Assembly: GCA_036768485.1 (NCBI GenBank)
Contig: JAVLUZ010000693.1
Span: 711,042-775,041 of the forward strand
From: Mermis nigrescens
Taxonomy: Eukaryota > Nematoda > Enoplea > Mermithida > Mermithidae
Direction of reading: 5' to 3'
Length of the DNA stretch: 64,000 nucleotides
Shown: positions 1 through 64,000 of the stretch, in pieces
How positions within the stretch are numbered: the first letter of the stretch is position 1
How the letters are laid out: every line of letters begins with the position of its first letter
Translations under genes and position numbers: made by a program
Notes under the pieces: model-generated
The model's input: only the letters and a program-made list of their open reading frames with translations
Told to the model about the DNA's origin: nothing
Database searches by the model: none

Positions 1-634
1 GTAATATCATAAATCTCAAAAATGGGGAAATAAGGTTCTAATAAAAAATTTACTGGTTTATTACCCTCTAGCCTTTCAAATACAACCCCTGGTTGTGTTT
101 AATGCAACAAAAATCTATTTTTTATTTTCTTTGCATGGATATCCATCCACCATGCGCCTATTCGTTGTACCTCTTCTAAAAAGTAGTTTTTTCAGAAAAT
201 AACATACATGTTTAGAAAGAGCATAAAAATTGACTAAATAAAAGTAATAACTGCTACAGCATGTAAAGTAATACAGGCTATAACTTTTTGCTATGATGGT
301 GCACTTCGACTGCAAAACCATGATGGTAAACAGAGGGTTAAAGAGCATATATTCACAAGATTTTCTTGTATTATTCTGTTGATTGATCCTTAACATTGTT
401 TTTCGTTGTAAATCAACTATGTAAATACATACAAATAAATCTTTTGAACTATGTATATATATTCGTGGGAACAACGTTTTGCCCAATAAATTTGAATAAA
501 AGGCTCCGATTCATATCAAGAGCATCAATTGAGCGAAATAATGTACCTGCTATGCTACATACCCGCATTATGTACCTCAGAGCATGAATGATAAATGGTC
601 GAGGCAGATACTGAAATAAAGAATAAACCTTGAT
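1..634. repeat. dispersed ~630 bp repeat, copy 1
   Basis: This stretch is closely similar, in the same orientation, to 16630-17266. Both begin with GTAATATCA, share GGTTGTGTTTAATGCAACA, and end with GAAATAAAGAATAAACC. Here the window edge cuts the left side, and the minisatellite begins right at the right edge, whereas the second copy is followed by unrelated sequence. I see no terminal inverted repeat and no convincing reading frame. Its class is unknown; it may be a fragment of a longer transposon. Confidence 0.8.
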
Positions 635-635
635 C

Positions 636-1920: not shown

Positions 1921-2876
1921 TTAGCTAAGAGCAGGGGTCTGCATTGACATATAATTTCATTCGCGGAGGAGTCCGAAATATTCCAAAATTTACTCCATTC
2001 AATGTGGCCTATTTATTGAATTTGCATCATATCTTCAGGGCGGTAACAATTTGCATTTTCCGAAATGCAAGAATGACTACAATCGATGTACTTTTTTAAG
2101 CTGTAAAGGTCGCGTTTTTTGAAATGTTAGATTAAACATCATTTGATTTTTTACATTGATTGTGCCCCTTATTCTGTAATTTTACACTGATCGCAGTGGA
2201 ATCAGTGTAAAATTTTAAATGATCTTATCGGCTTCCCATATAAACACAATAGACTAACGCATTTTAAACATCGCCGAAAACTTCCACTTAGCGTAGTGGT
2301 AAGACGTATGATTGTCGTCGAATCATCACAGAGTTCGATTCCTGCCTGCCGCAAGATTTTTGTTTAGCTTGCACATACTGAAGTATGTCACAGCACTGTT
2401 TAGATGCTTGAAATTTAGTCTATATGGACGGTTTAGTGCATTAAAAATGAAATAATGGCGGCCGCTCGCTTCCACTCAACTTTTCTGTCTAATTACAGTA
2501 AATCACCCAATTAGGCATACTGTAGCCTCTAAAAAATTTACTGAAAAAGCTATCAAATAAATGAAACAGACTATAGTCGCAACAATAGCGATGCTTTGCA
2601 ACATTAATTAAAAGTATGTGTATGAGGTCTCGTTATGCAAAATTGTGTTACCTATATGTACTCATGCACACTGACTTGAAATCACTTGAGTATTGAAACT
2701 TGATTTTGTACAAGGTATCGTTTATTTTTTTGCAATTATATACACACCAGCCAATTTATAGGAGAGATTAAAAATGCTTTAGGTGTGCAAGAGATATCCT
2801 AAAAGAGCCATTATTGATAATGCATTTACATATGTATGTTGTTTACGAAGCTAAAATGAGTTTTTCAATTAAAACT
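1921..2876. other. intergenic stretch, little recognisable
   Basis: AT-rich sequence between the minisatellite and the HMG-box gene. Apart from the tRNA-like remnant at 2284-2354 I see no gene, repeat or clear promoter motif. Confidence 0.5.
2284..2354 (+). pseudogene. tRNA-like remnant with Pol III A/B box resemblance
   Basis: TAGCGTAGTGG resembles an A box or D arm, and GAGTTCGATTCC resembles a B box or T loop at the right distance. Between them TGATT/AATCA forms a perfect five-pair anticodon stem around the seven-base loop GTCGTCG, which would read anticodon CGT. The T stem and acceptor stem do not pair. It is more likely a decayed tRNA or the head of a tRNA-derived SINE than a working tRNA. 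Confidence 0.3.
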
Positions 2877-2886
2877 TTGTTTTCAG
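2877..2886 (+). promoter_or_regulatory. strong 3' splice-acceptor motif upstream of the HMG gene
   Basis: TTGTTTTCAG matches the nematode acceptor consensus and lies 41 bases before ATG 2927. It could be a spliced-leader trans-splice site or the end of a 5'UTR intron. No SL RNA is visible in the window. Confidence 0.4.
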
Positions 2887-3046
2887 TGCAGTTACTTTAC
2901 AAATATAAATTGTTTGGCTCCGTTTTATGTCGTTTTCGCTGTTTTTGTTCCATAATTTTAGATACGTCTACACTTTATTCCATAATACCTGTACAATTAA
3001 GTCAGCATCGCACATTGCAGCATTGCTTAGCTTATTATTTGTAACC

Positions 3047-3121
3047 ATGTCCGTTTTGCATAAGCCACTAAGGTTTCCGCCGCCCAGGCGCCCAATGACA
3101 TCGTGGGTTTGTTACGTTAAA
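3047..3121 (+). CDS. HMG gene exon 1: N-terminus and start of box A helix 1
   Basis: Encodes 25 residues ending PPPRRPMTSWVCYVK, the classic opening of an HMG box (R-P, small residue, aromatic). The open frame reaches back to ATG 2927, so that start is a longer alternative. The natural donor is AAA|GTGAAT after 3121, leaving phase 0. Confidence 0.7.
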
Positions 3122-6100
3122 GTGAATTATGTCAATCGAAAGAATGAATTGGGATGTCGGTTAGTTTAGCTTATGTAATTTTTGTTTCAGCCGTAGAGCA
3201 GAATAAGCTTTCTTCCTGAAATGAAGGGTTTAAAAGCTTCAGACATTTTAGAAAATGTGCTGGTAGTGGTAACGCGAAAAAGTGCTGTCATCAAAAATGC
3301 GAATTTAGCATAAGTTTTCAAACGTATTCCTTACAAATAATGGACTCTTTTAGATCATGTTTATTTTCCGCAACCTCAAATTTATGTTTCTTGCGTTTTG
3401 AGAAAAATACGGGTCAAACCCAATTTATGCCCATTTCTGAGAGTATCCGTAAGTATTCTGCACTTTTTTACGCCATTTTCACCGTACAATGAAGAATTTT
3501 GGGGGTTTTTAAGTTTTTCAGAAGGACTGGAAAGATTCAGAAAATTAGACAGCTCATTAAAAAGAGCGTCAAATTTTCTAGCTATCTGCTAAAAATATTT
3601 TGAAATGTGTCAGAAACTCCCAAAATAATAGCTGAAAACATCAAAAGCTATAGTATGATAGCCTTCCTGGCGGCCATATTAAAAACTTAAATTCTGCACT
3701 GTATCACGCAAATAGGATATCATTCGAAAGAACATTTTTTGGGCTTTCCAAAATATGCTTACACAATGAAAAATATAAAACATAGCGCGAGTAAAACGCA
3801 TTCCTTATGGAGGCAGCTATATTCGAAAAAATTTAATTGAAATTGCAAGACGAACTCTTAAGAAACAGGAAAAAGAAAGACGTATAAAGTTTAGCGCACA
3901 AAAAATATTGCTATCTTGCTACTTTTAGAAATAGGAAACGAAAGCTGTATGCTGTGGGGACTACGCAAAATAAGGGCGGTTTCTGAAGTACAGCATACTG
4001 TAGCCATAAGCTAGCACAGTTTTTCGACAATAGTAGCTTCATTCATGAATATTCTATTCATCAAAACACTATATTTTATTGCAGTTCGTGCAGTGGTTCC
4101 TTGAGTTAATTCTAAAAATGGCCATCCTAGCGAAAGCAATCTTCAATGGACGGGAGGTTTACTTGCGTTTGCTTTGCAGTAATACTGTAGGTACACAATA
4201 CCATTCAAGTTGCACTTATTTTTTCTGAAAGCCAATTAAATTTCGTCATTTTTGTATTTATTTTTTCTTTTAGCACTTTGTAGATCAAAAGTTAGATGCC
4301 TAAATGTGCAAAATTTGTCAGTTTGTGTGCGGCATATTTTGATAAACATTATTATGACGCACATATGTAACGACAAAAATATTTTCATGCAGGATATTGC
4401 TTGTAAAGTTTGAATTACACCATCTAATGTGTTTACTTAGAAGTTAAAACCCATCCAAAGTGTTATCCTGCTCAAAAAACGTGAATGTGTATCGTCTTCC
4501 GCCCACTTTGTTGAATGCCGGCTGTTATCCGGTGGCGGATCCAGGATATTCTGGCAAGGGGAACCCTGAATTTTCATAATAGCGTCAAGAAATTGTCCAA
4601 AAAATTCCTCCAATGTATGCTTAAAGTATCGTTTTCTTGCCGTCTCTTGATAGACATAATCGTTTGTGATCCGATAAAGTTAAATAATTTGGACAGATTT
4701 CTACAAAAACCAAGCAAAATTAAGTACCTAATTAAATAATACTGATCTATTATTCGTGTCATATCTACTTGATATATTATGCAAAAGTTATGACTACAAA
4801 CAATATAGGCACGCAAAATAGGTAGAAGTAAAAAATCCTTATTCTGTGCATAAAGTAATCTTCCGACTTTAAAATAATGTTTTTATAGCGCCAAGAAAGT
4901 CAGTAGGTGTACTTAATGAAAAATTTAAAAATCATGATAAAAATGGCTAAAATAATCAAATGATGCACGTCATTCTATGTTGCGCCGAAATTATTTTTTA
5001 CGACAGTGAGTCGGGAAAAGTGGTACCCGCCCCCTAAATACGCTCTTGCTGTTATCCAAACTATTTTTTCATTGTGTAGCGCATTCGCATATTCTTTGCA
5101 TTTCTCTGAAAGTTTCGTCATTTGAATTGTATGATTCTTCAAAATCTAGACTACCAACGATTATTTTTAAAACATTAGCCGAAGAATGGGGCCGAATGAA
5201 TCAAAAACAGCGAGAGCCATACGTCCGCTTGGAGCAGGAAGATAAACGGAGGTAACTTGACATATTTTGCATGAAGCGGCTTTTCAGCTTGGGAATCAGT
5301 TATAAATGTCTCATTAATCGTTAATACTCGTTTATGGTCTTTACAATTAGACATAAGTCTTTTATCACACGCAAATGTTTCAATTTTAATATTATTTTTC
5401 TGTATCTGTTTTTCTTTTTTCTTTAATCTTATCGCTTACTACATTCGTACCTAACCCTTTATTGAATTTGTTAAAATCGCTTACGTGAGTTTTTAGATTA
5501 TTTTAAAAATAACAACTTGATCCTACTCTCGTTTGTTTCGATAAAAAGCTGATACGGGTTATAAGGTTGATATCTGGCATGCATATGGTTGCTTCAAGAT
5601 TTATGAAACTTACAGATGATAGACATGAACAGAAAATTAACAAGTCCTGTGAGATAAATAGTCTTGCCAGGGGGCTAGTATATTCAGCTACCATTCTAAA
5701 CTAGAATAATTTAGCCTATCTCACTGCCTGGAAATCTTGTTTTTACGCGGGAAATGCTTATTCACCAGTAGTATACCGCGTCACTCTGACATCACATGAT
5801 ATAACGTAGCCTATGCTTTTGGGATTAAGGCCAGACTTATAATCGGATATGTTGACAGAAAAAAACAAGACAGAAACACGTTTAACACCCCGATTTTTTA
5901 CTTTACTCCTCCCATAAAAAATTAAATATTGATGTTGATGAATGCCATTCGCTATGACGTGTACTTCTTAGAAAGTACTTTTTTTATTGTGCTCGAGTTA
6001 TCTCGACTTCTAAATGGAGAAAATGGCGTACATACATTGACAGCATGGGAATTCCGGGGGATGAAATTATACAGTGCCTTTTTAAGTTAAAAAAGGTAGG

Positions 6101-9100
6101 TATGCATCAAAAACATCGTTTTTCAGCGTTTCTGGGGATGCTCTATCTTTGTAGAGCATAAAAACAATAAATTTCCGAAAAATGAAAAAAAGTTGGAAGA
6201 AATTAAACGTACGAAGGACGCGAAGTGCCAAAAATTTGGCACTTTTGAGCCAATAGATAGCTAAAAAGGCTTAAAAAAGCATCTTTTCTACAACTTTTCA
6301 GAATATTTTGGGAAAATTTCCAAAAATAGCCAATTCTGGGAGTGAACAAATTTTTGCAGGGGTTGACAATATTTTTAGGAGAAGGGGTGAAACCCCTCAG
6401 ATTATGTATGGTGGTGAACAAAAAATAGGACAAAAACATATTTTTTTTAAGATCCACCATAATGTAAACTTTAAAATCTGAAACAACTTCATAATTGAGT
6501 GTAAAGAAATTTGATTTGGGCCATTTTGCAGCCTATGAATCGTAGTACGTTTGTATGGTAAACTTCTCTTCCGCAAAATATTTGAGACATCAACCTATCG
6601 AAAACAGGGAAGAAAACGTTTTTCCCCTGAATGTTACACCCCTGATTTTGAACTTTAAATCTCCATAAGTAAGCATTATTGAGTTTTTAAACGTTGTTTG
6701 CTGCGACGTGTACCCCTTGAATTGTGCCTTATTTTTATTTTATTGAATTTTATGACTTATAACCGTAGAAGTTGGCGTTGAAATCCTATACAAAACCTAA
6801 TTTTTACACTGTCCTAGAGTATAAAATTTATATCCCTAGATCTAACTCTGTATTCGAAGTAAAAACATTTGCAGGCAAGCAAAAAGTAGCCCCAAGCCGT
6901 AGCACATTTTTACCAGGAAAAATTTCTTGGGACTCGTAACCGAAGTTGTTGGCAGACAAAAAAGTGCCAAAATGTCTTTTTTCAAGTGAATGTGAGCTTA
7001 CTCAGTTGTCTACAAATTAAAAAACTAGACCAAACAGAATGCAAAACTAAGGTTAGACAAGTCTAGTGTCCGACCAAAATTCAAAAAAGCTATATGTATA
7101 ACTTTACAGCTATACCATAGACGCTTTTTACACACCGGGTTGAACTGTAAAAAAAACACCCGCAGCAAATTTGTTTATTATCTATCTTTAAAAAAAATCC
7201 GCATCTCCCTGATATGTCCCGTTATAGCTGTAGGGGGTATACGTATGTTAGGGGTACATAAGCATATATGAGCATAGGGAATGATGGGTTATTACCCTTC
7301 CCTGAGCTATGAAAAACTGATAGCTACACAGCGATTTCGGCCGAAAAATTATTGCTGTATGGCCTTTTTGGACTTAGAAAATTAGCTATACACACTTTTT
7401 GGGCTAAGAAATGCTATTTAGTTGTCTTTTCTGAGTTTCAAAAGAATATATAGCTATTTTATCGACTCCAAAAAGGGATTAATAGCCATTTGTAGTCCAA
7501 AAAGGCTATTTAGCTATGTTTGTGAATCCAAAAAGGCTATATAGCTAGTTTTCTGACCCCAAAAGGACTACAGAGCTGTTTTTGCGTAGCACACAGCTAT
7601 CTAGCAATCTTTGGTTTTCACCCCTCCCTGAAAGTTTGACCTTGCGCACCTATATACCCAAGTATATTACAGGGACGCGCTAATGCGCTACCTATGATAT
7701 AGCGCAACTACATACGAGATCAGAATTGATTATTCGATTATATCTTTTATGAAAGCGTGCATATAATGTCATCGAATTCATGAAAAGTCATTGCTGTAGT
7801 CAGCTTCTCCTCTTTGCGAACACAAATGTACATATGGGGGTGTATGGTCAATTCAAATAGGGTAAAAGCTTTTGCAGAAAATGCAGACCGGAGATGGATG
7901 AAAAAATCACAAGTATTTCGAAAAACTGATGTAAATTCATAAGAATATTTATGTTTTCTCCCTTACCATACCAACTTTAAAATCATTTCAATTCAGTATA
8001 TCATCAGTTCAGCTGACCCCTGCCCTAAAATGTGACAAGCGGCCATGCAATGCATCTGTGACACATTAAATTAAATCAGGTAGGTACTTAATATACATAT
8101 ACAGGGTGTTCCACCTAAGTGTCACTGACTTAGTTTTCCTGCCATTAAGTCAATACTGATCGATAAATGATGAAACTTTACAGGAATCATTCCTAGGCAT
8201 TAGAATTTATTCTTACCAATTTTCATCACATTACATAAATCACGTCAATAATTATAAACTTTAACGTGATCACCACCATTTTCAATCATTTTGTATAGTC
8301 GTTGACAATATTCCAAAAGAACCTTTTCTCGCATTTCTACTGTAACTTCGTCAAATGCTTGAATTATTCGATTCTTCAACTCAGGAATGCTTGTTGGACG
8401 TGTGGTATAGACCTTTGATTTAATAAAGCCCCAAAGGAAAAAGTCACACGGTGTCTGTCAAATCAGGTGATCGTGGTGGCCAAGGCAAGTTACCCGATCC
8501 ACGACCCATCCACCTGTTTGGTAAACTGTTCGTCTAACCAATCACGAACCATTCGGCCCCAATGAGGCGGAGCGCCATCCTGCATAAAAATGACGTCGTT
8601 TTCAAGATTTTTTTCTGATAAAATTGGGAAGAATTGGTTTTGTAGCATGTCCAAGTAACGAGCACTGTTTATTGATTCATCAAAGAAAAATGGGCCAAAA
8701 ACCCCATGGTGGCCAATAGCTGCCCAGACAGTCGTCCTTGGGGAATGGAGCGCTTCTTCAGCAATCCAGTGTGGATTATTAGGCGACCAATACCGATGGT
8801 TATGTCGATTAACTCCACCATCCAAATGAAAGTGAGCTTCGTCTGAGAAAAGAAGATTCGCCAAATGATTGTGTTCACTTTCCATTCTTTCCATTTCATC
8901 ATGTGCGAATTCAAGGCGGTTTTGTTTATCTTCGTCGGTAATTTTTTGAAGAATCTGTATCTTGTATGGATGCCATTTAAGACCCTTTACGATTCTATGA
9001 ATTGTACCCAAACTAATCGTGAGGGCATTTGATGCTCGACGAATTGATGAGTGGGGATTTTCGATAAAATGCTCCTGAACCCGTTCAACATTTTCTTCGG

Positions 9101-12100
9101 AATGCGCTGAACGGCTCTGATCCCGTTTCCATAAGATTTCTATGCCACTTGCGAATGCTGTTTTTATCAGGAGGATCGCGGCCAAACTCAGTACGAAACT
9201 TTCTCTGCACCATAACAACACTTTGGGTCCATTCAAACCATGCGGCTACTTTTGCACGTTCAGTTAAAGAATAGGACATAGCTAATTTATCATAAAATAG
9301 CAAATGAGCTAGAGGTAGGTACGAAACTTTTACAAAAAAATCTTTCACGTGTACTCTATGTTTGTGTAAAGTTTCATTCAGATTACTTTAAAATTGTCAA
9401 CTTTACACAAAAACAAAACCGGTGATACTTAGGTGGAACACCCTGTATATTTATTTAAAATGAGCGGAATCCTTACACATATTAGATTTCATCGTAGAGA
9501 ACGTGATAGACTTATTGGGCGGCGCAGGCGATTAAAATTCGAGGCTCTGGATAGTCCCCTAAAAAATCAGCATATTCCCTTATTGAACTTTCGAGAATTT
9601 GTTTCGGCTTTTGCGGTTTTTTAATCTTGAGTATACATATTTTGACCCCATCACCTAGTTTTTGTCCTCTAACCTTAATAATCTGCACGCCTACTCCATT
9701 GCCCCCAGAGTTTCGGCTCTGCCCATGACTGTGCCGGACGTACAAACTTAAAATTGAGTTTTCCTGTAATGGGGTTCGACTGTAAGCATACGTTGTTAAA
9801 ATATATAAAGTGATACCGATTAAACTTTCGCCAAGAACAATTGAATGCAAATGTAATCGTCGGCGAAAGATGGTGAATCAAGAGCATACATTTTATTAGG
9901 GGAGATTCAAGCCCCATGAATTTTTTACTCCCCCACGCATTACCGATCTTTCGAAAATTTGTAGAAAAGATGCTGTTTATTGCGTTTTTAGTCACTAAAA
10001 ATTGTCACATTTATGGCGCTTAGTAAACATACATTTACTCATCTTTCGTGAAGTTTGACCGAATTTTATCAAAATTTAAAAAAATTTTCTCATGTTCTTG
10101 CGTTAGAAGACATAGCAACGTCAGGAACGCCGAAAATGACGTTTTTACGCATAACCAAACCAGTCTTCTTGAGGATGAAAAAACCGCGCTAGAAATTTGT
10201 TTGGCTTAACTCCCCAGACTTCCTATCCGTCTGTCTGTTTAAGGTGCGTAGCGTTGAGCGGGCAAGCTTTTTCGCACTGCAAAATCCTGCTCAGGTGGTC
10301 CGCCAAAGTTTAAAAGAATAATCTTTCTCTTTGATTTGATCAGATGCTCCTGACAAAGGGTTATATATGCAAAAAAGCTCAATGAAATGTACTAGGCGAA
10401 AGCGACTGTGCGTCGTTACACTATACGTGTTCTTGGGGTAGGGATGTAGCATGAGGTTTTAAACCCTGCCCCGCAGAATATCTGCTGACCACCCAGCATT
10501 GTCGATCTTCCGAAAAACTTGCCTAAACTGAGTTTTTAGCATTTTTAGCTCAAAAGTCTGAAATTTCGGGTGCTTTGCACTATATATTCATTGTTTTGAC
10601 CTTATTCTGTTGAGTTTACTCAATGTTTTCGAATTTTATCGAAAGTTTTTGCTCTTTTGTTCTGAAAAGCGTTAGTGTGTAAAATGACGGAAAAATGGTT
10701 TTGGTCGTGTGCGCTTCATACATGGGCAGCGACTAATTTTTAAAACGAGTAATCTAGGTAGTGTAAAATTGGCAAAAATTTCAGAAAAACATGCCAAAAA
10801 TCAAATTCTGATGATGTATTGATTTTTAGAGGACCTCAAACTCCTTTACGCCTACGGTTGGTGCCCATTGTTTTTGGATCCAAAGAGGTACTTTTTATAA
10901 ACTATCCCACGCTTTATCCCCCACCCGGAATTCCCAAGCTGCGCCAGTATATACGCTTTACACTCCTATCAACAGGTACAGCGATCAGAAAGCGTTGTGG
11001 GCGTCTAGATATCCCGGTCGAATTCCTTATCTAAGAAGACGCAGAAAGCACCCGGATGCTCCGAAGCACACGAGAACTTCCTTCATGTTATTTAGATCGG
11101 AGCAATTTCACATCGTCAAGCAGGCGAATCAGTCCTTTTCTGCCCTGGAAGTTGTCTCCGAAATCGGTAGAATGTGGCAAAAATTGACCGAGAATGAAAA
11201 ACAGCGTTTTAAGTACGAAAATGAGAACGAATTTGGAGCCAAACTATTGATTAAATTTTAAAAAATAATTCATTAAATAAAAAGAAGGGATATAAAATTG
11301 AAAAAAGTGAAGTAGCAAACCGATCATTCGAAAATTTTATTCTAGCGTGCTTTATCGGCTTAAAAACGGTGGTACACGCCAAAGACCATTTACTGACATT
11401 TCTAGCAGTCTTGTTTCTTTAGACCCTAAAAACTTCGAAAAGCTTTTTCTAATGTAAAAAAATTAAACTAAGTACGGTCAAAATATTGCTGTTAATGTGA
11501 CATGTTCAAATGAACTGCTAGAGGTACCTTTAAGCCAAAAATCGCTAGAATGGTTATAAGAATACCACAGTTTCTATGGTTTTCTGGAAAACGTAAAGTT
11601 CTGGGGGTCAACAATATATTACGAGATTCGGCAGCCATTCTGGTGAGTTTTTACTAGACAAATACGCATGGATGAGTGATTTTAGGGTAACTCCCACAAT
11701 CTAAAGACTCAAAATTCAGAAGACTTTTCAGCAATAGATTATTAGATATTTTTCGTTTATTCGCGATTTTTTGAAACCAATGGATAGAGCTCGATGAAAA
11801 ATGCTGAAAAAGTTTTTTTCGCACTCTACCATCAATTTTTCTGGACTATCTTGATATTTAAAATTTTTAAGACCCTGCTGCTGACCTGTCGTCTATACTC
11901 TGTGTCCCCCTAAAAGATAATTAGGCTAAATTTCCTGTTAGAAATATGGAAAAATTAAGGCCCGAAACAAGCAAATCGCAATTCTTTTGCAAATGTGCTT
12001 GAAATTCACCAAAAAGTGCCTAATATGGTAGCTTTTGCTACGTTTACACTATATCGTAAATCGTTTTAGAGGCCGAAAAAGGATTAAAAAAGGAGAGGCT

Positions 12101-27447: not shown

Positions 27448-28440
27448 ACAATATCTTTATCTGTCTTAAAGATTATTTACTGTTAAAGTCAGAAAAGTCG
27501 GCAATACGATTTGTAAAATTCGAGTTCGCTGATATGTTTTCTTACTTTTGCCATACGCTTTTATTTTATTGTTACATAATCATCATAAATGGGCATCAAC
27601 TGGATTCTGATATTAGAATAAATTTGATATATCGAAACCAATAAAATGAATTAAAATAAAATTTATATAAATTGAATCACATTCTTAGTCAAATTCTTAA
27701 AGATCAAAAAGTGCTAAAAAGATTTTTCAGCAAAGAGCAACAAATACTATTTTTTTCAATTTTCTAATCAAGTTTTATATAATGGCAATAAAAAACTGCA
27801 AAAAACGAAATAAATCCTGAAAATTCAATTCTGATGCTTTCCGGATTCTATAATGTCAAGAACCATTTTCAGACTTTCCCAAGGCTCATATCTGGCCATT
27901 TATTGATAACGGAATAGTTGGAAATATTGTAATATTTTTCTACTTCTACTGTTCTATTTTAATTTTTATCTAACGCATTTAATTGTCATATTTTATTTAT
28001 TTTCAATTGTTATTATTTTATATTTTAATTATAATATTTATAGATTTATTTTATTTTATCTTTTTTCGTCGAATTTATGTAAATCAAAAATTCGTTTTAT
28101 GAGTCGTTTATTACACGATTTAGAATTACTATTCATTCGGTACGATTATTTATTTTTATTAAGAGTATTTGACACATTTGTTTTAAATTTTTCTAAATTT
28201 GTATTTTTAAAACATATTTAGTTTTTATAATAAGCTTTATTTTAAATAAATACCATCAACAGTACTTTATTATTTTTTACAATAAATTTTGTGTATAATG
28301 AGCATTGATCTCTTTTCTCTATACTTACATTGATTTTATCATTTATAGCGGCCAGCTATTGGGAAAATAATTAGAGGGAAATTTTCCAGCGCGTAACAAC
28401 CGGAGATAATTGATTATTGATTTAATATGTTTCATTAATT
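27448..28440 (+). other. AT-rich upstream region of the channel gene
   Basis: Extremely AT-rich (especially 27960-28300). I see no repeat copy and no exon. If the promoter is local it would be here, but no motif stands out. Confidence 0.4.
28380..28389 (+). promoter_or_regulatory. acceptor-like motif before the channel start codon
   Basis: AATTTTCCAG, 51 bases before the ATG at 28441, is a good 3' splice site. It may be a trans-splice site or the end of a 5'UTR intron. An in-frame TAA lies between it and the ATG. Confidence 0.35.
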
Positions 28441-46600: not shown

Positions 46601-49600
46601 GGATGCTGAGGTATGAAAGTGGATCGGTTTTTCGGAGTTTTTTTTTAAATTTCAAAACATTTAATTAAAAAATGATATAAAATTTAAAAATTTTAAATTT
46701 ACAATCGCACTCTTCTCGATTTCTGGTTTTTAGAGTTTTAGCTTCACTTTTAAATTTTTAAATTTTAATTAACCTCGATTCAATTTGAATTTTTTAATCG
46801 AAATTTAAATTTTGATTTAGCTTTTAGTTTTATTTTAAATTTTTATTTTTAGCGGTATGACATTTGTGTTCGCGTCGCTGTTAGAATTGGCCGTCGTGGG
46901 ATATTTGAGTAAGACGCAAGATGCTCGGGAGGCTACGGCGCTGAAACGATTACACAGGGAAGAATCGCTCATGTTAACTAAGTGGACCAGGACTTCAAGT
47001 TTATTGGACGAAGAACGCCCTAAGCTCATCGTTGCTCAACCTCAATCAAGCATCAACTCCACGGTCTATCCGCCGTGTTCCGGCTATTTACTGGTAAATA
47101 AGTTAATATAATTTTAAAAAATTTTTGATTTTGAATTATTATTCTTGAATATTCGTGAATGTTTTTCGATTCTTTGTTACAGTAATTATTTTCAATTTCT
47201 GTGATCATTTTTGGTAGGTTTAGATTATAATTGCGTTTCACTAATTATAATTTACCAGTTATTCGGACGAAAAATGGCTTAGCAAGCGATCTTTTACGTA
47301 CCTGTCAAAAAATGCTATAATTGGGCGTTTTATTCGTTTTTTTTTAATTCTTGATTTGCTTGCTAATTTATTTTTCATCGCATTTTGATCCTTTTATCCA
47401 TTCTACAAGAACAAACCGATTATTGAATTTAAACACATGTTTTTGTTTATTTTTAAACTTTTTATTTACAGTTTTTAATCTTAAAATACTCTTGCGATAA
47501 TGCTGGCAAAAGAATTTGAAATTCCGAAATTTTGAGCCCGTTTACTTTTGAATATTTTTTTAAATTCATTAATTTTGAGAATTCAGAAATTCTGGTATTG
47601 TCAGCGAATATAGAGACCAATACGCATAAACAGCTTTAAGGCCAGACGTGCTCGTGGGCGGTTGGGGGCTTTTATCCACCCAAAATGGAAAAATAGAAAA
47701 TTGTCCGGCGAAAATGAGATAAAATGAAGACCAAAAATAAAGAAAAATTGAAAAATTTCTGCAAAAGTTCTTTAAATTGATCAGAAACTGTCGAATAACG
47801 TAGTTTTAATGTTATTTTAGCATTTATACTACTTTATGCGGCCATTTTACCCCTAAAAAACAAATTTCTTGACATTCCCCTACACACATTTCTATAGGAG
47901 GAAGGGCGAAGGAGGTATTACCCATACATCAGGGTCCAAGACTCGATTCACTGTCAGACGATTTCGAATTATCAAGCATTTTCTGCATAATTTTTGGGAA
48001 CGAAAGTAGCAGAGACGTTAAAATTTGTTGCCGACTTTCACATTTCTGTTTTGTTTATTTATAGAATGCCTAGAATGAGGTTAAAATGATCTAAAAAGTC
48101 AAAATTTTCGATGAACTCGATACATTTACAACTTACAAAACTGACGAAACGAGTCAGATTCGGATGAAAAGCATTTAAAAAATGCAGTTTTTTCACATTG
48201 AAGCATTTTATATAGGTTGTTTGAACCATTTTTCATATTTAATCTGCAAAAAAGGCTGGAACTTTAAATTCAGTGGTCCCAAATATTAAGATTTCACCCC
48301 CTGAACTTTCGACTTTGGGAAACTATGCTTCCTTAGACCGGCTGACCCCCCCCACCCCTTCCAGTTCAGCCATGATCTGCGTTTATTGGTTAAGACCCTT
48401 AGAATCCGCTAAAAATAGATTTTAATCTCGAATGGTTTTACTATGAATAAAGTGTGTATTTTATTTTGCTTATTAAGTAGTATGCTATATTATTTGTTAT
48501 TCATTGTATTAGTTCATTTTTTGGAATTTTTTCTGCATAACGAGTACAGTTTTACGCCGTTTGTGCGTTTTCAACTAAACTTTACTGCTGGATAATGCGT
48601 TATTCCGACTTTTTTATCAGAGTTTTAAGTCTCGTAGCTCAAAGGTTCGATAACGGATTCAAATATTTATATTAATACAATGTAAATATAATAAAACAAG
48701 ATTTGCTAATTTATAAAGCTTTTTGATAATTTTTTAGTCAAATTTGGCCTTGTAAAATGTCTGCAATTAAGTCGGGGAACGCCGGAAACTTTTCGTGCTT
48801 TTATGACAAATTAGTTTTTTCAGGAATCCTTGAAATTCTATGAAATATTGATACAAAAGACCTTTCTCATCGCGATCTAATGATCGTAAAAATTGGGGTC
48901 TAGTGGGTGTCCTGGATTCTTAGGGAGAGCTTTTTCCATATTTAGATATTAACATTTTGTAATTTTCTAGATTTTTCTATATTTAGATGTCTTCTAAATT
49001 TCCTTTTTATACTTTGTTTTTTATATTTTGTTCTACATTTTTCTATATTTCTATATTTTTCTATTATTGAATATTTATTTTCTACATTTTGCTATATGCT
49101 CACGCACCAATCCGGAAATCGTCCAGTTGGTTGTTAGGCCAAAGAAACCTCACAAAATGGCACAAATGCTGAAATAGCTTCAAAACATGCTTATTCCACA
49201 ATTTCGGGCCAATTTCATGCATTTTTGAAACAAGGTTCGATATTCATCAATTTCCGCCAGAACCTTTCGACTTCCGTCCTCCCACGTGCATGCCCAGTGC
49301 CGTCAGCCGATTCAAAAAAAGAAAAGAAAATTGGTCCAAAGTTGAAAATGTTTAAAAATCTTTGAAATTCCAGAAATTTTAATTTAAAATCGATCTAAAA
49401 TTTAAGATATCCGAAAATCACAAAAATTTCTAAAAATTTAAATTTAGAATGATCCAAAATTTAGAATATTCGAAGATAATAAAAATTCAAAAAATTTAAA
49501 TTTGAAATTGGTCCAGAATTGAGCATATCCGAAAATCACAGAAATCTAAGAAATTTAGATTTAAAATTGGTTTAAAATTTTAAATATTCGAAAATCATGA

Positions 49601-55904: not shown

Positions 55905-56960
55905 ACGTATGTCTAAGTCAGTGTTACAAGCTGGTTTATTCTTGTACCTTAGATGTACACTATTCGACCATGAAATTTGTTTCAAGCAATAGTATATGAT
56001 AAATGCTCCATTTCAAAGTCGCTTTTTAAGGAGACAGCTTTTCTTGAATCGTTTCAAAGTTAAAACTTTTTCGTAAATTGTTATTTTTGTATGTACACTT
56101 ACAGACTGGCTGATATTTAAGTCCTCTCTTCAAACATGAATGGCCTATCCCGTTTAAAGAAAGCAGAATGGAAAATGGTAAGCCTGTCCTGTTTTATATA
56201 AGTAGCTCGTATTATGGATCGAAGAGGAGCCGTCTACGTACTTTAATTCTGCTTTCATATCTGCTTGATCCGCAAAGCAAAACAAGATGGCTTATCATAT
56301 ATAATAAATGCCCAGTTTTATGTAGGTCACCTTCAATTTCTTTAAATATATCTAAAAAATCAGCTGTGTGGTAGTAAGTTTAATAAGCTTTTCGATCAAG
56401 TTTTTGCATGCTTTAAGATAACTGCAGCTTTAAGTTTAAGTTAGCTGTTATCTGAATGTCCTAATACCGTTAATCCTAGACACCATAGTCTGATTTTTTT
56501 CAAGCCTTAAATCCAACACGCGGGAACTCGGTTAGAACCATCAATGCGAGAAAATATGTGTGCCACACTTGTTGGAATGAGGCACGAAGAGAAATTTAAA
56601 AATTGCTTGAAGGATTTGGCCTATTAAGGCGTGTAAAAGTGAAATTCGTCGTTCTCTTTGAGATCCGAATTGCGTCCATGTCATCACATTTATTGCACAT
56701 GGAAAGCTTAAAAAATAGGTCTTTCTGGTCGTTTTTACTCGCAAGTGTTGCTGAGTTGTCATGCTGACATTATTAATTTGATCGACCATTTGTTTCGAGA
56801 GGCCGTGACAGTACCGAGTGGCAAACTCGGACAGTATTACCGAAATTATACGCTCAGCGTGGCTGGTCTGGGGGTCAAGCGGTCTGAGGGAGCCATTAGC
56901 AGTATAGCCTGCGTCCCTAGGGTTACAACGTTATAACATATACAGTGTTATAAGATAGGC
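55905..56960. other. region with short coding-like frames, unassigned
   Basis: Short frames such as MRENMCATLVGMRHEEKFKN (plus, from about 56543) and CHADIINLIDHLFREAVTVP (plus, near 56757) look less random than the background but have stops and no family match that I can see. Confidence 0.25.
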
Positions 56961-56962
56961 GA

Positions 56963-57100
56963 TGACGTCATAATCTGCGCCCTGGCCCAAAATCGAGGTC
57001 GCGCCAGGGCGCAAATGGCCTGGGGGCCTGCCAGGACCTGCCCGGGGAGGGCGCGCTCCAGCCCAGGGCCAAGGGCCCAGGGTCAGGGGAGGGGAGGCAA
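56963..57100. other. GC-rich island beside a perfect CRE octamer
   Basis: TGACGTCA at 56963-56970 is a palindromic CREB/ATF site. It is followed by about 125 bases dominated by GGCCC, GCCAGGGCGC and GGGCGCGC words, against a background of about two-thirds AT. It could be a promoter-proximal element or simply a GC-rich repeat; no adjacent gene start is visible. Confidence 0.35.
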
Positions 57101-57169
57101 TAACACAGGGGGTTATTACCCAGGGCGTTATTATCCAAGGGTTTATTTTTGAAGAGGCGTAAGTCAAAA

Positions 57170-57965
57170 AACCAGCGGTCGAATCGGGCTCGAATTTACA
57201 GAGTATATCAAGTATATGTTAGGTATCTTATGTACAAACTTTTAGCACGCAACCTACAGTATACCAGCATCAGTTTACACTTTTGCGTAACTCAAGAACC
57301 ACTGGTCAAATTTTGTTCAAATTTATAGGATATGATGTATATAGGCGATTCATGCTACGCACAGAATTTCAGCGCGCAGTCTACAGTATACCAATTTACT
57401 TTACACTTTCTTATATAGCACTATATTTCAAGAAATATAGGGCGGATTCAGCTCAAATTTTCAGAGTAGGGTGAGCACATGTTGCATGTGTTATGTTATT
57501 GATATGGACATGTAATCTACAGTATACCAATTTACTTTACACTTTCTCGTATAGCACTATATTCCAAGAATCAATAGCCGGATCTTGTTCAAATTTTCAG
57601 GATATTATGCGTATAGGCAAGGCATGCTATGTACAGAATTTTAGCGCACAGTCTACAGTATACCAGTTTACTTTACACTTCCTCGTATAGCACTATATTC
57701 CAAGAATCACTAGCCGAATCTTGTTCAAATTTTCAGGATATGATGTATATAGACAAGGCATGCTATGTACAGGATTTCAGCGCGCAGTCTATAGTATACC
57801 GTTTACTTTACACTTTCTCGTATAGCACTATATTCCAAGATCTACTAGCCGGATTTCGTTCAAATTTTTAGCATATGATATATAAACCTTAGCTGTCTTA
57901 TGTACAAAATTTTAGCGCACAACCTACTGTATGCTGTTTTTTATTTACACTGTCTTTACAATGCT
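57170..57965. repeat. ~135 bp tandem repeat, about six copies
   Basis: ACAGTATACC or a close variant recurs at 57256, 57383, 57519, 57654 and 57791, with spacings of 127-137. Units also share TCGTATAGCACTATATTCC and TTGTTCAAATTTTCAGG. The array lies just outside the left palindrome arm. Confidence 0.9.
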
Positions 57966-58249
57966 TGATTTTCTTAGCAGTACTTGTCTAATGATGCCAT
58001 TACGAGTTATTTTTGCCCAAAATAAGCAACCAGTAGAGGCAAACATTGCTCAAATTTGATCATCATGCCATTTTGAGCTTCTCAAAGTTTATCAGAAAAC
58101 ACATGAAAAATGCCAATCTTTGCCTGCTGTTCAACTTGTGGAAATTTTTAAACCCTGAGCTAGGGTTTACTTTACAAACCTCCACACAAAATTCATTAAT
58201 GAATACCTAACTTCATCCATGTCATCAGTATTGATCTAAAATTAGCAAA

Positions 58250-58420
58250 GTTTGGAATAATTTTGCAGAGTTTGGAAATTTTTTGAAAAGTCTAGAAATT
58301 TTTTTGTAAATTTTGGAAATTTTTTTGTAAAGTTTGGAAAATTTTTTGCAGAGTTCGGAACTAATTTTGCGTGCTTAAGCATAAGAATTTTGCAGAGTTT
58401 GGAAAATTTCTTGTAAAGTG
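58250..58420. repeat. 20 bp minisatellite, left arm outer block
   Basis: Units close to TTTTTGTAAAGTTTGGAAAT, alternating with GCAGAGTTTGGAA variants. Contacts the 3' end of the TBP-like frame. Confidence 0.9.
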
Positions 58421-58666
58421 AATTGGAATTGCTCAAGCATTGTTGAGACTATTTTATAGGCTATATGCACCTCATGCTTGTGTTTTGCAACTGTAAGAAT
58501 CATTTTTCCGCTTGTAAAAAGCGAAAAGGTTACATTTCTAAATTTGTATACTAAACCAGGAAACAATTCTACTTCGTACATGCATTTCCCATTTACCAAC
58601 TCATAAAATTTACACAGATTAATACGATACCCTAAATAAGCAGAACCCACAAATAGGTGGCATTTG
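58375..58666 (-). CDS. TBP C-terminal-half-like exon, left arm copy
   Basis: After an acceptor (reverse-strand CTGAAATCAG) the frame reads KCHLFVGSAYLGYRINL, then YEVELFPGLVYKF and SLFTSGKMILTVAKHKHEV, and ends in STMLEQ. This follows the second repeat of TATA-binding protein (VGS....PI.L, YEPELFPGLIYR, F.SGK..LTGAK). The two Phe that wedge into the TATA box in that repeat (in ELFPG and just before SGK) are present. TBP-specific length would need a first repeat about 90 residues upstream; I find none in the arm or spacer. After LEQ the frame enters the minisatellite and stops. It may be a captured exon, a degenerate TBP-like factor or a domesticated half-domain. Confidence 0.6.
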
Positions 58667-59319
58667 CTGATTTCAGAGTTTATAAAAATAATTTTTTACG
58701 TGATTGAGAAAAATTTTTTTCCAGTGATTTCAGTGATTCAAATTGAGGAAATACGGTATAATAAGCACAAAGTTGGCATAACAGTTAAGACTCATTTCAG
58801 CAAAATTTGATATGTGTCTTGTGACTTAAGTAAACGATGCGTAAGGATTTCAAGATTTCTTTGACCATACGATTAAAAAGCACTAAAGCTGTTCAAGTTG
58901 CGTGCCTATGGAGGTGAAGTTATTGCACATAAAGGTGACAAGCTAAAGCATAACTAGGAGACTGTGTATCTGCAAGAATAAACATGAAAAGATGAAATAA
59001 CCCAAAAGTACTGAATTTTTTACCTATAACCTCCTGAAATTCAACAAATTTCATGCAGAGTTTAGAAATCGTCTGATTAGAAGATTTTAGGTATGATTGA
59101 TTCTTTACAATTTCTTATGTAAACATATAATTTTATTGATTAAATTAAAGAACAAGTGTTTGTGATTTTTGTCTTATTGGTTTGATTGGAAATTGCTTTC
59201 GAGATAGTATTACTTAAATACAATAGAAAAATAAGTGCTACACGAGTTTTAATCGTTTTTGTATAAGGCTCTTGAGAATTATTTTCTCAACACGCTAAGA
59301 ATGTTTTTGATTTAAGTGA
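58667..59319. other. left arm sequence between TBP-like frame and second minisatellite
   Basis: No further gene recognised. If the TBP-like exon has an upstream partner on the minus strand it should lie here or further in, but no first-repeat signature (such as a second SGK..CTGAK block) is visible. Confidence 0.5.
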
Positions 59320-59625
59320 ACAAGTTTTTGTATTTTTTTGTAAATTTTTTGTAAAGTTCGGAAAAATTTTTGTAAAGTTTGAAAACTTTTTTGTAAAGCT
59401 TGGAAAATTTTTTGTAAAGTTTGGAAAATTTTTTGCAGAGTTTGGAATTAATTTTGTGTGCTTAAGCATAGGACTTTTGCAGAGTTTGGAAATTTTTTTG
59501 TAAAGTTTGGAAATTTTTTTGTAAAGTTTGGAAATTTTTTTGTAAACTTTGGAATATTTTTTGTAAGGTTTGGAATATTTTTTGTGGAAGTCGGAACAAA
59601 ATTTGTAAAATTTAGAACAAAGCTT
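59320..59625. repeat. 20 bp minisatellite, left arm inner block
   Basis: About fifteen units close to TTTTTTGTAAAGTTTGGAAA. It creates the spurious FGNFFVKFGNFFVKFGNFF-type frame. Confidence 0.93.
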
Positions 59626-60497
59626 GTAAAAGTCATAAGAAAGTTTTATAAATGTTCAGATATCCGAATTCAGCCACAATTAAAGGGGTATATTTGCCCA
59701 TATTGCATCCAAAACCTTGTTTTTATTGCCTAACTTAATAAGGCAAGTTCTAGAGATAAGTATACTGCTAGGCATCTGAACATAAATTTGTATTTGTGAG
59801 GCTGCGTTATCTGGCTTATTGGGAAGGTGTACCATGATATCAGCTAGTATTGCACTGTGCGCTTAAAATTTTGCTTGTTAATTGATAACGATCATGATAA
59901 AGATAGCCTAAGAACACATCAAATGTGCCAGAAATACACATATTGTATACACAAAACTATTCAAATTCCACACTTTATTGTGATAGCGTGAGGTGCACGA
60001 GTTAGCTAACTTGTATTAAAACTTGCAACATTAAGTGAGCAATTTAGCAACAAACCAGCATCAGGCTGTATGCTTTGTGTCTGTATCGTAAAAAATATCA
60101 CATTAGTACAGGTTTATGTTTATGGCATAGTTTCCCAAGGTCAAAACTTCAGGGAAAGGGATACAGTCCTGAAATTTGAGAACACTAATTTAGAGTTTTA
60201 ACTATTTTTTGCGATTGACATATGAAAAATAATTAAAACATCCTATACAAAAGCTTATAGTGCAGAAAGCTGCAATTCTTTTTATCGAGTTCTGACTAGT
60301 TTTGTCATCTTTGTAAGTTGAAAATATAATAATTCATTGCAAATTTTGACTTTTAAGCTCATTCTATGCATTTTATAAGTTAAAACAGAAATGTACTACT
60401 TGGCGTGAAGGTTCGCTAAAATCGTCTAACAGTGTTTAAGCCTGAGGAAGGGGGATTCCCCCTATAGAAAGCTGTGCTTTTCCTGCTGCTATGAGGC
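59626..60497. other. left arm inner section
   Basis: No gene seen. 60120-60440 matches 47990-48345 in diverged form (reverse complement), with shared GGGAAACTATGC-type and TTTCTGTTTT.ACCTATA-type blocks. 60440-60497 (CCTGAGGAAGGGGGATTCC.. to ATGAGGC) is the inner tip of the arm. Confidence 0.6.
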
Positions 60498-61584
60498 TCA
60501 GCCTACCGCCTACCATTAAGCAAAATTAATCTTTTCTTGCTACAAACCATAGGGCAAACAGCAGATGATGCTAAGAATTTGTGCTGTAAGCAATAATACT
60601 GTTAAAAATAGATTGTAACACTATCAGCACCCCTGATAAGCACATATTTGGCTCATGCAGGATAAGTAGTTGTTGTAAGCTATAGCTTTTTTGATCGGTG
60701 GGTCTAAGCCAATATGATTCCATTTCAGGCATGCAGGGCTGCTCATGTATGCAGGCATGCGCATTGTAGCCTGCTTGTGAGAAAAATAACAAAGAGAATC
60801 CTTTTTTGCAAAAACTGACCAGAACAATTAATGCACACTGCTTTTTCTTCTTATTTAGAGCAATTTTATCTAAAAAGGTTTCCCTCAGGCATGTTCCACA
60901 AATATATCAACAATACCTCAGTAAATTTGATTAATTGCGACACTGACTACTGAAAATTTCGATTTTCATCATGTTATAGTTCCTAAATGCACTGAGTTTT
61001 GGGGTGCAGCTTTAAAGTATTAGTTGGATTGTGCACACAACCTAATGCTGATACATTTTCTGTATAAATGTCAGTCAATGTTACAGGACAAGGACCATAT
61101 AGCTTCACAGAAACATCTTTTGATTTCATTCAAACGCCCTATACACGACCCTTCCACGATCCTGATTTATACAATTAGTATTACACAGTATGCACTGACC
61201 AGTTTGTTACCAACTAGTATATCAATACATCAGTATACTTAATGATAATAACAGATACACAAACTGACTATGTGCGCCAGATGAGTCAATGAGATGCATG
61301 TGTTTCTGAACAGCTTAAAATCAAAGAATGTCAATGAGTACATCATAGTGAGTATATTGAGACACAGTACTTTGTTATTTGTTGCATGTTAAGTCAGTAC
61401 AGATAAGGTATGATATACATTGGTAAGCACTATGCCCCTGCAACCCTGCCTAAAAGGCAGCCCAGCAAATCTCTACTCCCTTTGCTCATGTTTTGTTTCA
61501 CTGGCCTACATAAACGCCATTTTTACATGTATTCTGCAGATAAATGCTTGTCTCTTCTTTTTAAGCATCACATTATTTTCGGGT
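60498..61584. other. palindrome spacer
   Basis: 1087 bases, single copy in this window. Short open frames on both strands (for example 60571-60827 minus and 61024-61242 plus) show no family feature. No transposase or integrase motif found. Confidence 0.6.
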
Positions 61585-62464
61585 GCCTCATAGCAGCAGG
61601 AAAAGCACAGCTTTCTATAAGGGGAATCCTCCCTTCCTCAGGGTTAAACTCTGTTAGACGATTTTAGCGAACCTTCACGCCAAGTAGTACATTTCTGTTT
61701 TAACCTATAAAATGCATAGAATGAGCTTAAAAGTCAAAATTTGCAATGAATTATTATATTTTCAACTTACAAAGATGACAAAACTAGTCAGAACTCGATA
61801 AAAAGAATTGCAGCTTTCTGCACTATAAGCTTTTGTATAGGATGTTTTAATTATTTTTCATATGTCAATCGCAAAAAATAGTTAAAACTCTAAATTAGTG
61901 TTCTCAAATTTCAGGACTGTATCCCTTTCCCTGAAGTTTTGACCTTGGGAAACTATGCCATAAACATAAACTTGTACTAATGTGATATTTTTTACGATAC
62001 AGACACAAAGCATACAGCCTGATGCTGGTTTGTTGCTAAATTGCTCACTTAATGTTGCAAGTTTTAATACAAGTTAGCTAACTCGTGCACCTCACGCTAT
62101 CACAATAAAGTGTGGAATTTGAATAGTTTTGTGTATACAATATGTGTATTTCTGGCACTTTTGATGTGTTCTTAGGCTATCTTTATCATGATCGTTATCA
62201 ATTAACAAGCAAAATTTTAAGCGCACAGTGCAATACTAGCTGATATCATGGTACACCTTCCCAATAAGACAGATAACGCAGCCTCACAAATACAAATTTC
62301 TGTTCAGATGCCTAGCAGTATACTTATCTCTAGAACTTGCCTTATTAAGTTAGGCAATAAAAACAAGGTTTTGGATGCAATATGGGCAAATATACCCCTT
62401 TAATTGTGGCTGAATTCGGATATCTGAACATTTATAAAACTTTCTTATGACTTTTACAAGCTTT

Positions 62465-62765
62465 GTTCTAAATTTTACAAGTTTTGTTCCGACTTCCACA
62501 AAAAATATTCCAAACCTTACAAAAAATATTCCAAAGTTTACAAAAAAATTTCCAAACTTTACAACAAAATTTCCAAACTTTACAAAAAAATTTCCAAACT
62601 CTGCAAAAGTCCTATGCTTAAGCACACAAAATTAATTCCAAACTCTGCAAAAAATTTTCCAAACTTTACAAAAAATTTTCCAAGCTTTACAAAAAATGTT
62701 TTCAAACTTTACAAAAATTTTTCCAAACTTTACAAAAAATTTACAAAAAAATGCAAAAATTTGTT
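62465..62765. repeat. 20 bp minisatellite, right arm inner block
   Basis: Units close to TTTCCAAACTTTACAAAAAA; mirror of 59320-59625. Confidence 0.93.
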
Positions 62766-63418
62766 CACTTAAATCAAAAACATTCTTAGCGTGTTGAGAA
62801 AATAATTCTCAAGAGCATTATAAAAAAACGATTAAAACTCGTGTAGCACTTATTTTTCTATTGTATTTAACTAATACTATCTCGAAAGCAATTTCCAATC
62901 AAACCAATAAGACAAAAATCACAAACACTTGTTCTTTAATTTAATCAATAAAATTATATGTTTACATAAGAAATTGTAAAGAATCAATCATACCTAAAAT
63001 CTTCTAATCAGACGATTTCTAAACTCTGCATGAAATTTGTTGAATTTCAGGAGGTTATAAGTAAAAAAATTCAGTACTTTTGGGTTATTTCATCTTTTCA
63101 TGTTTAATCTTGCAGATACACAGTCTCCTAGTTATGCTTTAGCTTGTCACCTTTATGTGCAATAACTTCACCTCCATAGGCACGCAACTTGAACAGCTTT
63201 AGTGCTTTTTAATCGTATGGTCAAAGAAATCTTGAAATCCTTACGCATCGTTTACTTAAGTCACAAGACACATATCAAATTTTGCTGAAATGAGTCTTAA
63301 CTGTTATGCCAACTTTGTGCTTATTATACCGTATTTCCTCAATTCGAATCACTGAAATCACTGGAAAAAAATTTTTCTCAATCACGTAAAAAATTATTTT
63401 TATAAACTCTGAAATCAG

Positions 63419-63710
63419 CAAATGCCACCTATTTGTGGGTTCTGCTTATTTAGGGTATCGTATTAATCTGTGTAAATTTTATGAGTTGGTAAATGGGAAA
63501 TGCATGTACGAAGTAGAATTGTTTCCTGGTTTAGTATACAAATTTAGAAATGTAACCTTTTCGCTTTTTACAAGCGGAAAAATGATTCTTACAGTTGCAA
63601 AACACAAGCATGAGGTGCATATAGCCTATAAAATAGTCTCAACAATGCTTGAGCAATGCCAAATTACTTTACATGAAATTTTCCAAACTCTGCAAAATTC
63701 TTATGCTTAA
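63419..63710 (+). CDS. TBP C-terminal-half-like exon, right arm copy
   Basis: Acceptor TCTGAAATCAG ends at 63418. The first 80 or so codons are the same as in the left copy through STMLEQ, including VGSAYLGYRINL, ELFPGLVYKF and SGKMILTVAK; visible differences start after LEQ, where the frame meets the minisatellite (QCQITL here, QFQFTL left). Starting one base after the acceptor implies a phase-2 junction with an upstream exon that I cannot locate. Both copies point outward from the palindrome centre. Resemblance to TBP is seen in the motifs; function is not inferable from half a saddle. Confidence 0.6.
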
Positions 63711-63850
63711 GCACGCAAAATTAGTTCCGAACTCTGCAAAAAATTTTCCAAACTTTACAAAAAAATTTCCAAAATTTACAGAAAAATTTCTAAACTTTTC
63801 GAAAAAATTTCCAAACTCTGCAAAATTATTCCAAACTTTGCTAATTTTAG
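63665..63850. repeat. 20 bp minisatellite, right arm outer block
   Basis: Mirror of 58250-58420, directly 3' of the TBP-like frame. Confidence 0.9.
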
Positions 63851-64000
63851 ATCAATACTGATGACATGGATGAAGTTAGGTGTTCATTAATGAATTTTGT
63901 GTGGAGGTTTGTAAAGTAAACTCTAGCTCAGGGTTTAAAAATTTCCACAAGTTGAACAGCAGGCAAAGATCGGCCTTTTTCATGTGTTTTCTGATAAACT

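Follow-up and report, generated by a model that had tools for sequence, protein, structure and literature searches.

Many eukaryotic DNA viruses are believed to have their root close to the Polintons (Mavericks), whose transcription is, to our knowledge, little understood. In vertebrates, the ends of Mavericks are of the (AGT)2 type and their target duplications measure 6 bp, according to the relevant passages of PMC8097293. Genes for the TATA-binding protein (TBP) are reported from viruses in passages of PMC4602308 (phycodnaviruses), PMC11464507 (Megavirus chilensis) and PMC12085832 (a Chrysochromulina virus), the last of which also proposes that giant-virus TBP redirects host RNA polymerase II (Pol II) to viral genes. 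Passages of PMC10132985 give TBP in 59% of mirusvirus genomes, and passages of PMC10675990 describe it as sporadic in integrated viral elements, the mirusvirus-like elements of the alga Cymbomonas. Here we describe a stretch of 64,000 nucleotides from the nematode Mermis nigrescens (contig JAVLUZ010000693.1, positions 711,042 to 775,041 of the forward strand; hereafter the window), which ends in a giant palindrome that carries half of a TBP gene in each arm. Judging from its sequence, we give a probability of roughly 80% that this palindrome is a non-autonomous derivative stemming from a Polinton/Maverick family with a TBP gene of its own and, apparently, a uniform TATA box ahead of its genes.

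We found no description of a TBP gene in Polintons in the literature that we searched, which did not include the 2023 nematode polinton paper PMC10748475. The main text of PMC8097293 has no occurrence of "tbp", "transcription factor" or "palindrom"; PMC12220804 contains "tbp" nowhere and "tata" just inside an author name; PMC4028283 contains neither "tata" nor "transcription factor"; PMC7786948 mentions TBP in its reference list alone; and the searched portions of PMC11071308 and PMC10120064 contain no TBP passage and, where looked for, no TATA passage. The main text of the Mermis nigrescens genome paper PMC10989877 contains neither "maverick" nor "tata".

The candidate parents of the palindrome are found elsewhere in the same genome. 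At 11 loci (L016 to L026), each with one match to the half-TBP frame of the window, there is a TBP gene of 171 to 173 codons, and in all 11 the start of an ATPase gene adjoins the TBP start on the opposite strand (the two starts are 45 bp apart in L017). Among the 17 loci scanned for this arrangement, L027 also has it, with a broken ATPase frame; in L010 the TBP is not accompanied by the ATPase start, and in L012 to L015 a TBP start is lacking. We listed the frames of L016, L017 and L018 and ran ten frames of L017 and L018 against Pfam. The TBP gene of these elements encodes two tandem TBP repeats (PF00352 in two stretches, with E values of 8.9e-41, in L017, and 3.7e-41), and the L017 protein contains the motifs KFPG, LLIFKSGK, LFPG and LLFTSGK, which hold what we take to be the four DNA-wedging phenylalanines of TBP. 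Other frames encode an integrase (rve, 7.2e-14 in L017 and 3.1e-14 in L018, with a chromodomain in both), an adenovirus-type cysteine protease in L017 (PF00770, 1.9e-5, 24.9 bits against a cut-off of 21.3) and a candidate packaging ATPase (Pox_A32, 1.2e-4 in L017, 22.0 bits and slightly below the cut-off of 22.8). The only full-TBP copy of which both ends were read, C161:8850444-8862725 (12.3 kb), ends in AGTAGTATACCGTGC (AGTAGT), has a CCTGAC 6-bp duplication on both sides and carries inverted repeats of 1.2 kb (1225 columns, 96.6% identical). Searching the genome for the polymerase PolB (PF03175) gave 1062 candidates, of which the best 80 were scored: at five or more loci (C61 twice, C69, C190, C248) the distance between PolB and a TBP frame of 173 aa is 14,218-14,220 bp, and at three or more (C93, C49, C47) a TBP frame of 188 or 197 aa stands 8-10 kb from PolB. 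From these spacings, the longer copies of the element probably carry a polymerase.

Candidate TBP frames are abundant in the genome. The assembly that we searched has 523,963,438 bases in 860 contigs, and passages of the genome paper give 524,220,005 bases, 867 scaffolds and 83.98% repeats (PMC10989877). A search with the window frame gave 2022 candidates, the best 150 of which were scored, all below 1e-36; the Pfam TBP model gave 2552 candidates, and the best 150 scored were all over the cut-off. By hand count, 56 of the 150 scored window-frame rows are stop-to-stop frames of 172 or 173 aa whose match has no internal stop. The copy count called for in a preliminary description of the window thus comes to more than 2000 TBP candidates, these genome-wide counts being lower bounds in that only the best candidates were scored.

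The genes of the parent elements are preceded by a uniform TATA-like box. TCTATAAATA occurs 19 times in L016, L017 and L018 taken together, and 18 of the 19 sites lie 3-42 bp before a same-strand ATG that opens at least 90 codons, 15 of these 18 being 24-42 bp from the ATG. L018 alone has 5 sites, against 0.06 expected by chance, and its TBP gene has TATAAATA about 30 bp ahead of the ATG. The TBP of the parent elements could recognise this box ahead of the element genes and recruit host TFIIB and Pol II, a proposal for which we see the chances as evenly balanced. More tentatively, the elements may possess a private initiation system, in which their TBP would read the TCTATAAATA boxes of morphogenesis-type genes, the polymerase gene would have a different TATA box served by host TBP, this division would act as an early/late switch, and the palindromic derivatives would parasitise the system in trans.

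Several observations weigh against this picture of the elements and their promoters. Four frames of L017 and L018 had no Pfam match, one of them being, by position only, a candidate for the double jelly-roll major capsid protein, and the capsid-like frame of L016 had no credible PDB match (the best, at E = 0.52, is an ion channel). The C161 copy contains no PolB-like long frame among its frames of at least 120-140 aa, with no profile search made. L016, L017 and L018 are related copies, about 16-20% apart, so that the 18 TCTATAAATA sites are not independent. At the one PolB start considered, that of C69, GGTATAAAAGG rather than TCTATAAATA is found, about 85-95 bp before the first ATG. Ahead of the L030 and L031 TBP genes no box stands out, and ahead of the L039 TBP gene there is TATATAAG. 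We accordingly limit the promoter claim to the main subfamilies. Finally, a TATA box of the TCTATAAATA kind could be served by host TBP.

This last point bears on an alternative that we consider unlikely, namely that the element TBP acts against its host by competing for TFIIB or DNA, thereby damping transcription of the host or of rival elements, and that host TBP serves the TATA box. Such a role would agree with the fit of TCTATAAATA to the general TATA consensus and with the retention in L016, L017 and L018 of YEVELFPG, presumably the TFIIB-contacting stretch of TBP. Yet ten fixed bases before many element genes would seem to exceed what host TBP needs, and the giant-virus authors propose, in passages of PMC12085832, that the virus uses its TBP and TFIIB to turn host polymerase towards its own genes. 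As for the window, it contains two TCTATAAATA boxes, at 28035-28044 (-) and 48056-48065 (-), against 0.39 expected, and 7 of 100 shuffles of the window had at least two; these boxes may mark further Polinton fragments or be due to chance.

Between the three subfamilies represented by L016, L017 and L018, the ratio of non-synonymous to synonymous divergence (dN/dS) of the TBP gene is 0.11-0.13, which fits a working TBP protein. In a 31-protein tree, whose several long branches make placements unsure, these TBPs form a group with P0004 and the TBPs of L030 and L031, beside the eukaryotic TBPs (support 85/80); element and eukaryotic TBPs together have a support of 93/96, and the L039 TBP joins the eukaryotic side (94/95). 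L030, L031 and L039 are repeat copies whose location in Polintons is not established. P0004, a protein of 171 aa that is 49% identical and bears the source label lgn, may even come from the same species as the window. Two host TBP exon-like frames (both in L029, at C73) read like animal TBP and group with the animal TBPs. An amplified host exon, one of the origins suggested in the preliminary description, was rejected, the C73 host frames grouping with animals and the element TBPs standing apart from them, beside the eukaryotic ones (85/80, with long branches). A protein search with a single 172-aa TBP found 2 proteins; a search with the TBP alignment found 3091, and among the best 120 of these most look like ordinary archaeal or eukaryotic TBPs. 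The same alignment had no match in viral contigs. Two groups on this tree deserve mention in their own right: L039 and the 188-aa TBP frames form a distant subfamily that may be a separate capture, and P0002 and P0010, two metagenomic TBPs that have a basic loop inserted into repeat 1 and share a very long branch, are perhaps another viral TBP group.

The palindrome of the window has the spacer of 1.09 kb that was first described: it occupies 60498-61584 (1087 bp), as delimited by arm-arm alignment. In the alignment of the arms, 58086-60497 against 61585-64000, 33 of the 2416 columns differ, gaps accounting for 4 of them, in keeping with the near-identity claimed for them; the length claimed, at least 2.4 kb, was too low. 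Alignment of L013 and L014 extends the left arm to window position 56895, and because this alignment starts there and a terminus, AGCAGT, begins at 56898, the left arm (56898-60497, +, from terminus AGCAGTATAGCC to spacer) measures about 3.6 kb. A predicted left 6-bp target site duplication, GCCATT (56892-56897), adjoins this terminus, its right copy being absent from the assembly. The contig, C653, ends at window position 64000 (contig position 775041) inside the right arm (61585-64000, -), so the right element end lies off the contig. Each arm carries an outward-facing half-TBP frame, of 106 codons from stop to stop at 58378-58695 (-) and in mirror copy at 63390-63707 (+). Tandem repeats of 21 bp, which also occur in the full-TBP loci, lie 3' of the left frame (58247-58360), and a repeat scan placed others 3' of the right frame (63725-63839), in a second block of the left arm (59342-59585) and elsewhere in the right arm (62497-62747).

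How the arm relates to the parents can be read from L018, where it matches 5042-5781 and 8101-8681, the integrase region between these two matches being missing from the arm. Subterminal tandem repeats of about 136 bp (57258-57935) resemble the terminal part of L018's complete TBP element (the match at 8101-8681). The inner part of the arm has no match of at least 150 bp in L016 to L026, the 21-bp repeats aside, and a portion of it matches L028 at 78%. At least 8 places in the genome, the window included, match the spacer at 80% or more over most of its length (best 40 of 99 candidates), and among the loci examined the spacer matches solely other palindromes. No integrase, protease, ATPase or polymerase gene was found in the window palindrome, where the longest frame has 122 aa (Pfam was run on three frames, the two with TBP and one more). 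Of the origins suggested in the preliminary description, that of a captured gene in a foldback transposon comes close.

Long inverted arms are also present at L010, L012, L013, L014, L027, L028, L030, L035, L036 and L037 and, by mapping, at L011 and L015, and L019 holds a 68% inverted-arm structure. All these loci were picked via TBP, a choice that palindromes of the opposite element end would escape. Mapping to L018 or L017 showed that L010, L011, L012, L015 and L027 have as their arms the TBP-side element end, present twice, with junctions that differ: L012 passes from L018 4268 to 4905 with a shared TTAC (4 bp), L010 from L017 about 4613 to 4527 with a shared ACCA (4 bp; junction at L010 3791, plus a later insert of other repeats), and L027 from L018 about 3961 to 3433 with a shared CTTTG (5 bp). 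An unpaired loop of about 90 to 640 nt stands at four junctions (L010, L012, L015 and L027). The window-type palindrome, with the same spacer, lies inside contigs C47, C192, C221, C45 and C61. We are highly confident, from the sequences compared, that the related elements hold a complete two-repeat TBP beside Polinton-type genes and that the palindromes are one element end doubled, the window's kind recurring at several loci. Two structures may be noted alongside: L030 has, at 1-5528, an inverted repeat of 2.1 kb (98.9%) that encloses a TBP frame of 186 codons together with a frame also present in L016, and L011 has at the centre of its symmetric palindrome, at 4807-5125, a foldback repeat that is 82% self-complementary.

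Target duplications were checked at L011 to L014, at L035 to L037 and in the window. The L014 palindrome (on C47) has AGTAGTAT ends and an AATATG duplication matching at 6/6 positions. L013, with one end shortened, has AATATT at 6/6, a weaker case given the AT-richness of this sequence and the number of end pairs tried, up to 195 at each locus; L035 matches at 5/6, the target site of L012 is interrupted by a gap, and at L037 no terminus was found. An end-motif scan for target duplications gave 2 pairs among 31 loci. The right end of L013, at 8477, falls at AGAAATATAG, some 0.5 kb short of the normal terminus, with the same AATATT flank as on the left, and integration of a shortened end is possible there. 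Arm-arm identity is 97.4% in L036 and 95.4% in L037, against about 82-91% to the window, and L035 is not clearly closer (87%), which suggests that arms are sometimes homogenised within a copy.

We somewhat favour an origin of these palindromes during replication of the element. A replicating strand would fold back, or switch template, with little or no homology, so that one end is doubled and the rest deleted, and both ends of the resulting palindrome would still serve replication and integration in trans. To the objections listed above must be added the L015 junction (L017 4509 to 4391), which has 1 bp of homology, i.e. almost none, and the lack of a target duplication at L036 and L011, the right terminus of L011 being lost. 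The latter would also speak for an origin of the palindromes from two opposite insertions, or from chromosomal recombination of inverted repeats, instead of from replication errors; so would the inverted pairs that two insertions yield and the 84% of repeats in the genome. We nevertheless regard this origin as improbable, given that L014 and, more weakly, L013 have a single 6-bp duplication around the entire palindrome, that the window palindrome recurs elsewhere with the same spacer, that an unpaired loop is found at four junctions and that most neighbouring pairs face outward. By hand count, the best 150 window-frame rows include 18 neighbouring pairs less than 10 kb apart, 15 outward, 1 inward and 2 tandem; 4 of these look like duplicates, having the same spacing and scores, and without them 11 of 14 are outward (binomial 4e-5, a post hoc test in which several pairs copy one palindrome and are not independent events).

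As for the half-TBP frame itself, both copies in the window score against the Pfam TBP model (PF00352) at E = 1.6e-15 each, well above background. PDB holds 43 sequence matches at E<=1: TBPs or fusions of TBP make up the 35 best, including 4wzs_D, which carries only the label ECU04_1440 protein, and the remaining 8 are Cas9 chains, at E values of 0.34-0.45; the best-matching stretch is repeat 2 of solved TBPs. The predicted fold, with a mean pLDDT of 77.6, is TBP-like as well, the first 44 Foldseek PDB rows being TBP-containing (best E = 3.5e-5). The preliminary description was right to see in a real palindrome an outward-facing TBP repeat-2 frame with both phenylalanine positions. Repeat 2 stands alone in this frame, and when all six frames of the window were scanned, a TBP profile from three sequences gave no other match better than E = 0.13 that could be repeat 1. 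The half frame had no match in 5.8 billion proteins and none in viral contigs.

Most probably, this half-saddle frame is debris, a passenger that has lost repeat 1. We think it very unlikely that the palindromic elements make a working half-saddle protein from it, such as one acting as a dimer or as a dominant negative, and the dedicated regulator derived from TBP that had been imagined finds no support, in that related Polinton/Maverick loci hold the complete two-repeat protein. Three observations speak for function: the best 12 rows of the genome search with the window frame are open across the match, the 228-bp core of the frame is identical in 7 of 8 arm comparisons, and dN/dS against L018 is 0.10 (dN 0.040, dS 0.416). 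But the compared arms are overall only 0.9-2.6% different and L004 has 4 changes in the core; because zero change in 228 bp is near background at such divergence, the core has no clear excess conservation. The low dN/dS fits a divergence from L018 that took place mostly within complete TBP genes, before repeat 1 was lost. Moreover, the frame has Val in place of the Gly of TGAK, a Gly that is invariant in A2, its translation has no ATG ahead of the TBP part, and TCTATAAATA is absent from the palindrome. An assembly artefact at the contig end, put forward earlier as a join of two haplotypes, might draw on the end of the contig within the right arm and on the heterozygosity of 6.6% given in passages of PMC10989877, but was rejected as extremely improbable, since the arms differ at 33 of 2416 columns, the same palindrome and spacer lie inside the five contigs named above, and the C47 sister, complete with the same ends and its own 6-bp duplication, indicates a mobile palindrome and no assembly join.

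Elsewhere in the window, a 251-aa frame at 8493-9245 (-) matches DDE_3 (5.2e-4) and a Tc3-type helix-turn-helix (0.017), both below the cut-off, and is probably a Tc1/mariner-like transposase relic. A frame with an HMG box (3e-10) at 10830-11258 (+) is possibly an exon. Rfam and tRNA scans of the window found nothing.

Foldback elements and miniature inverted-repeat transposable elements have long inverted arms and are non-autonomous, and the palindromes share both traits with them, whereas the ends and arms described here trace to one Polinton end in which the TBP gene is cut. Symmetric end duplication also produces defective genomes in adenovirus and other linear DNA viruses with protein-primed replication; as in these, one end is present twice, the interior is lost and the replication ends are intact, the difference being that our palindromes are integrated and multi-copy and that their mechanism is a proposed one. 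They would offer a natural series of junctions from which the replication errors of such elements can be read. Mirusviruses, whose capsid is of the HK97 type, also have a TBP gene and differ in being large viruses with another replication and capsid system, and the mirusvirus-like elements of Cymbomonas are similar in having TBP within integrated viral elements (passages of PMC10675990). Giant viruses likewise encode a TBP (passages of PMC4602308, PMC11464507 and PMC12085832), but within genomes of hundreds of kb, in protist or algal hosts and with TFIIB and other transcription genes, whereas the parents described here are small Polinton-type elements of an animal genome, with TBP as the sole such gene recognised. 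If our reading is true, a small mobile element of an animal takes a general transcription factor along among its genes, just as giant viruses do, and the transcription of Polintons would become testable in a lineage that has a TBP of its own and TATA boxes that are nearly uniform. With the Polintons and Mavericks themselves, the parents share an rve integrase, an adenain-like protease and, probably, a packaging-type ATPase and, in the longer copies, PolB, as well as (AGT)2-type ends and 6-bp target duplications (passages of PMC8097293); what they add is a complete TBP gene and a uniform TATA box.

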